Assembly (NCBI GenBank): GCA_937930235.1
Contig: CALGLJ010000112.1
Location: forward strand, 1-36,537
Direction of reading: 5' to 3'
DNA length: 36,537 nucleotides
DNA from: an uncultured Verrucomicrobiales bacterium
Lineage (GTDB): Bacteria > Verrucomicrobiota > Verrucomicrobiia > Verrucomicrobiales > Akkermansiaceae
This document shows positions 33,892-36,537 of this stretch, one piece after another. The notes below the pieces were generated by a model. The model did not search any database. It was not told the DNA's origin and saw only the letters and a program-made list of their open reading frames with translations. A program made the position numbers and the translations under genes. Within the stretch, counting starts at the first letter, position 1, and the number at the start of each line of letters is the position of its first letter.

Positions 33892-36387
33892 ATGTTTTTT
33901 TTCCGTGCAATCTTGTTTCTTTCTCTGCTCCCCTCTTCTCTATTTTCCAAGCCGCTCTCATCAGGCTCGCCTCTAATCTTCGAAGAAATTAATGGCACTC
34001 TGGAAATTGAGGCCGAACATTTCCGCTCACAGAATAAAAACAAAATCCGCTCTTGGCACATTGTCAGCGAGCATTCTCCATCAACGATCACCCCAGATGG
34101 CGATCCAAACCACGCGGCCACTGCCTCCGGTAGAAGCTACCTCGAAATCCTCCCCGATACCCGTCGCTCACAACACGACCCACTCATTCCGGGAGAGAAC
34201 TTTCACGACACTCCCGGCCAGATTGCCATCCTCACTTACAAAGCATATTTTCATCATCCGGGGAGATACTACTGCTGGATCCGCACTCACTCGACCACCA
34301 CTGAAGACAATAGCATTCATCTGGGGATTAATAACACATGGCCCGAGTCAGGTGCTCGGATGCAATGGACTCCCAAAAGCAAATGGCACTGGGACAGTAA
34401 ACAACGCAGTAAAAAATCAGGCCGGGGGGAGTTTGGGAAAATCTGGATCGATGTTCCCAATCCGGGACTCCATGAAATCCATTTTTCCATGCGAGAAGAC
34501 GGGTGCGAATTCGATAAATTCATCCTCACCAAAGAAAAACCCGACCCCGCACATCCACCCGGGAGTTCCAAATTTGCAAAAAAAACGCACCCCATCAAAA
34601 AGCCTGCGACCCCAGACCTCCAACAACCACGCCAAGAAGATGGCCAAGGCGCCATCACCATTTCGGGATCGAATACTCAATGGCAGCCCGTGACCCTCAC
34701 CTTTGACGGCCCCTTCGCACATGAACGTGATCGCAAACCGAATCCCTTCATCGACTATCGCTTCTCGGTGGAATTCACCCATGAATCCGGAACTCCAACC
34801 TACCAAGTGCCCGGCTACTTCGCGGCAGATGGTCAGGCTGGAGAAAGCTCTGCGGAATCCGGAACCAAGTGGCGAGCTCACCTCTCTCCGGATCAACCCG
34901 GTAAGTGGACTTACAAAACACACTTCCACGGAACGGCGAAAGTCATTCCACCACAAACTGGAAGTTTCATCATTTCTGCAACACCCAAAAATGCTCCCGG
35001 CTTCTATCAGGAAGGGCGTCTCACATACGTTGGAAAACACTTCCTCCAACTCGCAGGCTCAAAACGTTATTTTCTGAAAGCAGGCGCTGACGCCCCCGAA
35101 ACCCTTCTCGCCTACGCAGACTTCGATGGCACCATCGCTCGGAAAAAACATGTCCCACTCAAGACCTGGTCCCCTCACCTCCAAGACTGGAACCCAGGTG
35201 ATCCAACTTGGAAAAATGGCAAAGGAAAGGGACTGATCGGAGCTCTCAATTATCTCTCTGGTAAAGGAATGAACGCCTTTTCATTTCTCACATACAATGC
35301 CGGAGGAGATGGTGACAACGTATGGCCTTTCGTCTCACGTGATGAGAAACTCCACTACGATTGCTCCAAGCTTGACCAGTGGAATATCGTATTCACTCAC
35401 GCCCAATCCAAAGGCCTCTTTCTCCACTTCAAACTGCAAGAAACTGAGATGGACGATCACAATCGAGGGCAAGACAACGGAAAACGAGCGAAGATGAGGC
35501 ATGTCCCCACGTCCCTCGACGGAGGAGCCCTCGGCAAGGAACGCAAACTCTATCTCAGAGAAATGATTGCCCGCTATAGCCATCACCTCGCGCTCAACTG
35601 GAACATGGGAGAAGAGAATACCCAGACCACGGCACAGCTCAAAGAACAAGCCGCTTACATCCGCAAGACAGATCCGTACGATCATCACCTAGTGGTCCAC
35701 ACCTACCCCCACTCCCAAGACATTGTCTATCGGCCCCTCCTCGGTGGTGACTCTCTCACCGGAGTGTCTCTCCAAAACTCTCGCCTTCGCGATTGTCATA
35801 AACAAACCGTGAAATGGCACCGCGCATCCAACAAAGCAGGAACTCCCTGGGCCATCGCCTTTGACGAACCTGGAAATGCTCAATATGGCATGCCTCCTGA
35901 TCCAGACTATCCTGGGATCCCTAAAAATTTCCAAGGCCCGACCATTCATGAAACACGGACCCGCGCTCTCTGGGGCACCTTAATGGGAGGGGGCTGGGGA
36001 GTGGAATACTACTTCGGATACAAACTTCCGCAAAACGATTTGGTTTGCGAAGACTGGCGCTCCCGGGATCAGTCGTGGAATTACGCTCACATCGCGCTCC
36101 AGTTTTTCAAAAATGAAAAAGTACCCTACTGGGAATTGACTCCCGCTGACGAATTGGTCGGAAATTCCAAACACGAAAACTGGGCATACTGCCTCGCGAA
36201 GAAAGGGTACTATCTCATCTTCCTCGATGGGAGCCGATCGGTGACTCTCAAACCTTATCCGGGAGATTCTCCTAACAAAATCCAGTGGTTCAATACCCGC
36301 ACCGGAACCAAACAAAACCAGCAACCACTACCGAACTTGAAAATCACAGCCCCAGACCGAAACGACTGGATTGCCATTATTCAGTAG
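33892..36387 (+). CDS. Secreted DUF5060 / glycoside-hydrolase-like protein
   Basis: The 831-residue protein has a signal peptide (about residues 1-19) and then the same N-domain as the preceding gene (EIEAEHF, HLGINNTWPESG, IHFSMREDGCEFDKF). A Pro-rich linker follows. A DUF5060-type beta-sandwich (about 265-365) has FRFSVEF-like strands and VPGYFAADG, and then comes a TIM-barrel-like region. Candidate catalytic acids are Glu574/575 in WNMGEENTQ and Glu659 in AIAFDEPGNAQ, as expected for a retaining glycosidase. The C-terminal 80 residues (YYLIFLDGSRSVTL, IQWFNTRTGTKQ, WIAIIQ) match the putative collagen-binding domain that often ends DUF5060 proteins. The substrate is unknown; I expect a polysaccharide. 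Translation runs to a TAG at 36387. Confidence 0.85.
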   Translation: MFFFRAILFLSLLPSSLFSKPLSSGSPLIFEEINGTLEIEAEHFRSQNKNKIRSWHIVSEHSPSTITPDGDPNHAATASGRSYLEILPDTRRSQHDPLIPGENFHDTPGQIAILTYKAYFHHPGRYYCWIRTHSTTTEDNSIHLGINNTWPESGARMQWTPKSKWHWDSKQRSKKSGRGEFGKIWIDVPNPGLHEIHFSMREDGCEFDKFILTKEKPDPAHPPGSSKFAKKTHPIKKPATPDLQQPRQEDGQGAITISGSNTQWQPVTLTFDGPFAHERDRKPNPFIDYRFSVEFTHESGTPTYQVPGYFAADGQAGESSAESGTKWRAHLSPDQPGKWTYKTHFHGTAKVIPPQTGSFIISATPKNAPGFYQEGRLTYVGKHFLQLAGSKRYFLKAGADAPETLLAYADFDGTIARKKHVPLKTWSPHLQDWNPGDPTWKNGKGKGLIGALNYLSGKGMNAFSFLTYNAGGDGDNVWPFVSRDEKLHYDCSKLDQWNIVFTHAQSKGLFLHFKLQETEMDDHNRGQDNGKRAKMRHVPTSLDGGALGKERKLYLREMIARYSHHLALNWNMGEENTQTTAQLKEQAAYIRKTDPYDHHLVVHTYPHSQDIVYRPLLGGDSLTGVSLQNSRLRDCHKQTVKWHRASNKAGTPWAIAFDEPGNAQYGMPPDPDYPGIPKNFQGPTIHETRTRALWGTLMGGGWGVEYYFGYKLPQNDLVCEDWRSRDQSWNYAHIALQFFKNEKVPYWELTPADELVGNSKHENWAYCLAKKGYYLIFLDGSRSVTLKPYPGDSPNKIQWFNTRTGTKQNQQPLPNLKITAPDRNDWIAIIQ

Positions 36388-36467
36388 ATCCCCACAAAAA
36401 AATACCGCGCTCCACCAGAAACAGCGCACCGTCATCGATCCGCACTTGCGACTGTGAGAAAGAACAA

Positions 36468-36473
36468 TAAGGA
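36468..36473 (+). promoter_or_regulatory. Shine-Dalgarno TAAGGA for the ArsC-like ORF
   Basis: TAAGGA lies 7 bases before the ATG at 36481, near-ideal spacing, which supports this as a real start in a window where most genes lack such a site. Confidence 0.5.
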
Positions 36474-36480
36474 TCTCCGC

Positions 36481-36537
36481 ATGTCCAAAGTCACAATTTA
36501 TCACTTCAATCATTGAGGTTCCTCAAAAAACGCCTTG
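36481..36537 (+). CDS. ArsC-family (arsenate reductase-like) protein, partial, in-frame TGA at the catalytic Cys position
   Basis: From the ATG at 36481 the frame reads MSKVTIYHFNH, TGA (36514-36516), then GSSKNAL, and runs off the window. The E. coli ArsC start, from memory, is MSNITIYHNPACGTSRNTL. Ten of the 19 positions are identical and several more are conservative, and the TGA is codon 12, exactly where the redox Cys (Cys12) sits. The similarity on both sides of the TGA makes a chance stop unlikely. Either TGA encodes selenocysteine, or the gene is a recent Cys-to-stop pseudogene, or the base is a sequencing error. Only 22 bases follow the TGA, so the downstream selenocysteine-insertion hairpin and the rest of the protein cannot be seen. 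Read as an ordinary gene it would be only 11 codons. Confidence 0.5.

Follow-up and report, generated by a model that had tools for sequence, protein, structure and literature searches.

A predicted selenocysteine-containing ArsC-family protein encoded at a contig end of an uncultured Verrucomicrobiales bacterium

Does the TGA codon close to the end of this contig terminate a reading frame, or does it encode selenocysteine in an ArsC-family protein? The window, i.e. the whole stretch of DNA that was analysed, comprises 36,537 nucleotides and corresponds to contig C112; the genome to which it belongs is 86.61% complete, with 2,886,741 bases distributed over 179 contigs. Translation of the window end (36481-36537, forward strand) gives MSKVTIYHFNH-TGA-GSSKNAL. 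An earlier note had taken this as the start of an arsenate reductase with the TGA in place of the catalytic cysteine, i.e. as a candidate selenoprotein. The locus contains the following features.

33892..36387, + strand: upstream neighbour, 831 amino acids, DUF5060 and GH115_C match; 93 nt lie between its end and the arsC ATG
36469..36473, + strand: AAGGA, Shine-Dalgarno-like, 7 nt 5′ of the ATG; conservation absent among the 30 fetched relatives
36481..36537, + strand: first 19 codons of the predicted Sec-containing arsC; entire gene on contig C50 (L002:85-441, L003:85-441)
36514..36516, + strand: in-frame TGA, codon 12, predicted selenocysteine replacing Cys12 of ArsC
36533..36537, + strand: first five bases of the 5′ arm of the putative SECIS stem; complete stem-loop at C50:137-154
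C50:137-154, + strand: putative SECIS stem-loop; stem 137-143 paired with 148-154, GGUC loop 144-147

The last 141 bases of the window (36397-36537) are identical to the first 141 bases of C50, another contig of this genome (L003:1-141), so that the gene can be read entire on C50 without joining of contigs. An overlap of exactly 141 identical bases is presumably of the kind that assemblers leave at a graph branch. C50 alone carries the full gene of 118 codons, which extends from an ATG at C50:85 through the TGA at codon 12 to a TAA at C50:439-441. Under the standard code, the frame listed there (L003:139-441) is an ORF of 100 amino acids with a TTG start beyond the active site. Automatic annotation would therefore lose the selenocysteine residue, and the gene identified here is one that a standard-code caller would truncate. 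The Shine-Dalgarno-like AAGGA, which had been put forward in support of the ATG, is indeed present, but a steady Shine-Dalgarno sequence is absent from the 22 bases upstream of the ATG among the 30 fetched relatives. Its support for the start codon is therefore weak and the argument was dropped.

With the TGA read as selenocysteine, the protein passed the gathering threshold of the Pfam ArsC model (PF03960) with 46.6 bits at a cut-off of 24. The arsC equivalog model TIGR00014 for arsenate reductase (glutaredoxin), in the scoring of which U was treated as C, was matched over all 114 positions with 89 bits, which is below the cut-off of 106.05; all 30 aligned rows including the gene itself matched this model with an E-value of 0.001 or better. 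Spx-type models also matched, with 46.3 bits or less and under their cut-offs. A sequence search of the PDB gave 12 matches, all named arsenate reductase or Spx, with a best E-value of 1.3e-16. In two alignments with E. coli ArsC, Sec12 falls on Cys12 and Arg60, Arg95 and Arg108 fall on arginines, and Lys16 stands at the position of Arg16. In an alignment with the Yersinia protein, Arg60 is one place off, on a threonine. Residues 8, 12, 60, 95 and 108 are invariant in all 30 aligned rows. We take residue 12, His8, Arg60, Arg94 and Arg107 to be the residues with roles in the arsenate reductases of TIGR00014; this catalytic set is found here with Sec for Cys12, His8, Arg60, and Arg95 and Arg108 for Arg94 and Arg107.

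A structure model calculated from the 30-row alignment reached a mean pLDDT of 87.8. Its first 11 fold matches in the PDB were ArsC structures (3f0i, 3rdw, 1i9d and others) with a TM-score of about 0.8, followed by Spx. Structure alignment with the ArsC of E. coli plasmid R773 (PDB 1i9d, 1jzw) gave 27-29% identity. Both proteins share the fold, the catalytic position, His8, Arg60 and two C-terminal arginines, whereas the window protein has Sec for Cys, Lys16 for Arg16 and 118 instead of 140-141 residues. As expected, the reading frame goes on to encode a complete ArsC-family protein, which is shown by the 118 codons on C50, the Pfam match and the alignment with E. coli ArsC, in which the selenocysteine comes to lie on the catalytic cysteine as proposed. 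The narrower assignment as arsenate reductase stood with respect to family and residues but fell short of the TIGR00014 cut-off.

To what extent is the TGA conserved? A homologue search in the 260 genomes of the family gave matches in 54 of them. Exactly one in-frame TGA is present in 39 of the 40 close homologues; the fortieth (G203) is a fragment without the codon 12 site. The 39 TGA homologues come from the window's own genus (23 of its 27 genomes) and from three other genera (4, 1 and 11 genomes), and the 14 remote matches in family genomes (23-30% identity) have no TGA. Thirty of the 39 were fetched and aligned, and all 30 carry the TGA at codon 12. A scan of 84,980 species genomes provided 140 relatives, the best 80 of which are referred to as named loci; several contigs are common to these and the 39 TGA homologues. 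Codon 12 is TGA in all 80 named loci. By label, they belong to Verrucomicrobiota (59), Actinomycetota (16) and Planctomycetota (1), and four have no assigned phylum, three of these being labelled Microthrix. No Cys form was found among these best 80 of 140 relatives. The scan employed two peptide patterns, one of which had Cys in the active site, and should therefore have picked up close Cys forms. A further search at an E-value of 1e-12 in 384 genomes drawn from the class gave 19 matches, namely four close ones with TGA and 15 of the Cys type with 30-37% identity. Conservation of the TGA across homologues excludes chance or error.

A SECIS hairpin had been sought 15-40 nt after the TGA, and one was found there, its apical loop starting 23 nt past the TGA. 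The 51 nt starting at the TGA align gap-free, and columns 20-26 pair with columns 31-37 to form a 7-bp stem closed by an invariant GGUC loop. The 79 distinct sequences provide 553 cells, of which 97.5% are paired. Changes on both sides of a pair occur in 27 cells compared to 6.8 (sd 2.1) in shuffles, and the covariation score is 0.225 compared to 0.144; for both measures none of 500 shuffles was as high. Control stems slid along the alignment displayed 0-2 double changes. Two of the five covariation measures were weak: a double change is seen in 3 pairs, a number at least equalled in 34 of 500 shuffles, and further pair types number 7, which was likewise reached in 33 of 500. The strongest covariation is a G-C to A-U change of columns 24-33 in 15 sequences. 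Pairing fails at columns 22-35 in eight sequences, at 20-37 in two, at 21-36 in one and at 25-32 in three.

Three codons of the hairpin are unusually uniform. Codon columns were ranked only if at least 40 sequences shared a residue, and the most uniform of the 54 four- or six-fold degenerate columns were Val21 (GTC in 81/81), Ala20 (top-codon share 1.0 of 78) and Ala18 (0.96 of 81), the median share being 0.40. As judged from the alignment, the uniformity at codons 18, 20 and 21 is a constraint on the RNA and not on the protein. Codon 26 (C50:160-162), located outside the hairpin, ranks fourth (Gly26, GGA share 0.82 of 74 sequences). Folding of single genes over 40 nt produced the expected stem in four of five stretches, the own gene included. 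When 45 nt of the own gene alone were folded, a different structure resulted, and z-scores of folding energy were modest (-0.6 to -2.1). Single-sequence folding was thus of little help and the case for the SECIS rests on the alignments. A small apical loop containing a guanosine is given as a trait of bacterial SECIS elements in the relevant part of a metagenomic survey (PMC1088965). The hairpin described here is located just after the UGA and has a 7-bp stem and a guanosine-containing GGUC loop. With its compensatory changes and the synonymous constraint, this stem-loop is predicted to be a bacterial SECIS element.

It had been anticipated that the organism encodes SelA, SelB, SelD and tRNA-Sec, and this was confirmed for SelB and SelD. 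SelB is encoded on C121 (309.6 bits, cut-off 242.25) and contains the SelB winged-helix domain; SelD is encoded on C25 (384.4 bits, cut-off 125). The selD gene (L024:4983-6017, minus strand) has an in-frame TGA of its own near the N terminus (SACAGUASKLG), which is followed by a short-loop hairpin, and SelD of this organism is probably itself a selenoprotein. A bacterial small SRP RNA lies just downstream of selD (L024:4801-4895, minus strand). SelA was not found in the 86.61% complete genome with the TIGR00474 profile. Neither the SelA protein of a relative (G242) nor the DNA of its SelA neighbourhood had a match in the genome, both searches being without a positive control. For tRNA-Sec, the best RF01852 hit reached 36.6 bits compared to a cut-off of 47, with 150 of 282 candidates scored, and the eight best candidates are ordinary tRNAs according to ARAGORN. 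The tRNA-Sec DNA of G242 gave only a 31-base match in the genome (E 0.011); the same query did find the tRNA-Sec of G241 (4.5e-44) and G219 (1.3e-34).

Within the family, SelA was matched in 70 of 260 genomes, in 69 of them over the cut-off. SelA was found in 25 of the 27 genomes of the own genus and tRNA-Sec over the cut-off in 20 of the 27. Among the 39 genomes with a TGA-containing arsC, 37 have a SelA match, including one (G175) with two pieces under the cut-off, compared to 33 of the other 221 genomes; Fisher's p of 5e-23 for this association ignores kinship and is not to be taken at face value. Hits to tRNA-Sec over the cut-off were listed for two sets, the own genus and the genomes with TGA, and 28 of the 39 have one. 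The window's own genome is the only one of the 39 with neither SelA nor tRNA-Sec. Six genomes of the own genus (G238, G228, G227, G232, G236 and G237) have SelA and no tRNA-Sec match at an E-value of 1e-7 in a search that scored 15 candidates per genome, and in two of these (G238, which is 97% complete, and G228) BLAST with the tRNA-Sec of a relative gave no match either. A divergent tRNA-Sec or a miss of the tool is possible in these cases. G200 has two full SelA matches on contigs C5 and C122, and contig C205 of G221 carries a second fragment of SelA, which contains a TAG.

The conserved TGA at the position of the catalytic ArsC cysteine, the SECIS element and the presence of SelB and SelD substantiate the proposal of a candidate selenoprotein. 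Insertion of selenocysteine at UGA-12 is considered very probable, and the gene very probably encodes a functional ArsC-family selenoprotein. The location of the TGA inside the 141-bp overlap of two contig ends would fit a sequencing or assembly error, and a TGA could likewise be a nonsense mutation in a dying gene. However, the same codon is found in 80/80 named loci, which stem from many sequencing projects, and in 39/39 homologues covering the site, and synonymous constraint and covariation extend downstream of it. Both error and pseudogene were rejected on the basis of TGA conservation, and we consider them extremely improbable. If the UGA were read as another residue, due to a changed genetic code or plain read-through, this would have in its favour only that the UGA is in frame. 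Among 32 stop-to-stop frames of at least 250 codons counted in the window and three other contigs, eight end in TGA, although some of these frames may not be genes. Four arsC genes out of the 30 fetched (L030, L033, L053 and L055) also have TGA as their terminal stop. This use of TGA as a stop led to rejection of a changed code. Moreover, the hairpin together with SelB and SelD points to selenocysteine, leaving hardly any room for a different residue.

The missing SelA and tRNA-Sec raise the question whether the gene is a relic in a strain that lost both, all the more as no other of the 39 TGA-arsC genomes lacks the two together. Nevertheless, SelB, SelD, the open frame and the hairpin remain, SelA is nearly general in the genus (25/27) and the genome is incomplete and distributed over 179 contigs. 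A relic appears very unlikely; the likeliest reading is that the SelA and tRNA-Sec genes lie in the portion of the genome that the assembly does not cover.

For a functional Sec-containing enzyme, the following course of events can be proposed. Ribosomes would reach UGA-12, where SelB carrying Sec-tRNA would bind the downstream GGUC-loop hairpin and selenocysteine would be inserted, as suggested by the SECIS element and the machinery. By homology, Sec12 would share a pocket with His8, Arg60, Arg95 and Arg108, and its selenolate would attack arsenate or a similar oxidised substrate. In E. coli ArsC the adduct is resolved by glutathione/glutaredoxin, and the homologous step may take place here. 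Judging from sequence and structure model, we lean slightly towards arsenate as the physiological substrate.

The neighbours of the gene on C50 that were scanned encode a uracil-DNA glycosylase-family protein and an M3 peptidase. No ars gene was found among three neighbours scanned at the own locus or among two in L116. An upstream gene is common to 14 named loci (11 Actinomycetota, 3 of unassigned phylum) and is CoaE-like, the family having been checked in L116 only. None of the 22 neighbour clusters listed for the named loci mixes named phyla. Since the scanned neighbours do not point to arsenic, the arsenate reading is carried by fold and residues alone. The protein might be a Sec protein of the ArsC fold with a substrate other than arsenate, such as a thiol/selenol oxidoreductase or a YffB- or Spx-like protein. 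In line with this, the TIGR00014 score of 89 bits is lower than 106.05, Spx-type models match below their cut-offs, Spx folds come directly after ArsC in the PDB list, no ars gene is among the neighbours scanned, and the upstream gene common to the 14 loci is CoaE-like in L116. In contrast, the arsC model beats the Spx-type models (89 compared to at most 46.3 bits), and His8 and the three arginines aligned to E. coli ArsC are invariant in 30/30 rows. A substrate other than arsenate is conceivable, yet we regard it with some doubt.

Selenium-containing ArsC proteins had been suspected to be present already in marine selenoproteome surveys, and this proved correct. In the pertinent sections of the Sargasso Sea survey of 2005, an 'arsenate reductase' with a UxxS motif and 14 sequences is one of 15 new selenoprotein families (PMC1088965). 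The corresponding part of the GOS survey of 2008 contains 'ArsC 1' (pfam03960, UxxS) with the numbers 77, 23 and 784 (PMC2398784), of which we take 77 and 784 to be the counts of Sec and Cys sequences. The UxxS family is also included in the family lists of reviews from 2022 and 2026 (PMC9312934, PMC13188914); in its section on this family, the latter places the UxxS ArsC under TIGR00014 and describes the functions of such proteins as largely uncharacterised (PMC13188914). The window protein resembles the UxxS selenoprotein arsenate reductase, as outlined in these sections, in belonging to the ArsC family, in the UxxS motif (here U12-G-S-S15) and in the SECIS just downstream. No difference from the survey proteins was found, the comparison being based on published descriptions and not on sequences. 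Likeness also exists to the UxxC arsenate reductase-like selenoprotein (NF041106; GOS 'arsenate reductase 2', cd03032), which according to its summary description is ArsC-like and contains Sec. However, the motif of this type is UxxC instead of the UxxS found here, and at an E-value of 0.1 the NCBIfam matches of the window protein did not include NF041106.

The string 'verrucomicrob' is absent from the main texts of PMC1088965, PMC2398784, PMC9312934 and PMC13188914, and listings of the open-licence literature gave nothing on the clade beyond the cited surveys and reviews. The kind of protein has been known since 2005, and the window gene is a well-supported further member, which adds a selenoprotein to the genus of the window genome. 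New here are the absence of the Cys form from the best 80 of 140 relatives and the high similarity across phyla. A clade in which no Cys form was found lends itself to the question of what an ArsC enzyme gains from selenium.

Loci labelled as other phyla encode proteins with 72-81% identity to the window protein. These 20 loci (L089, L107, L112, L116, L124, L126, L129, L130, L132, L133, L139-L142, L144-L147, L152 and L153) are labelled as Acidimicrobiia or other Actinomycetota, as Microthrix and, in one case, as Pirellulaceae; 14 of the 20 have a common upstream neighbour that is peculiar to them. Identity of this degree across phylum labels suggests a possible gene transfer between phyla, but the similarity could also come from mis-binned contigs or strong constraint. 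Tentatively, and as a possibility somewhat short of probable, we propose that the clade is obligately Sec-dependent and that the gene, accompanied by its SECIS and by no other gene, has moved between Verrucomicrobiota, Acidimicrobiia and perhaps Planctomycetota. Every one of these groups would decode it with Sec machinery of its own, and the protein may have a function other than arsenic resistance.

A tree was calculated from 81 Sec rows and 15 Cys rows, the latter taken from the search of 384 genomes of the class. It is based on 117 columns, which are few for that many rows, the bootstrap had not settled and the branches among the Cys rows are long. In this tree, the Sec and Cys rows separate with a support of 99/95. 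Fourteen rows, 11 from Actinomycetota and three labelled 'Microthrix', form one cluster (98/82). L089, L107, L116 and L139 were placed without resolution, and L146 pairs with the Pirellulaceae row (94/88).
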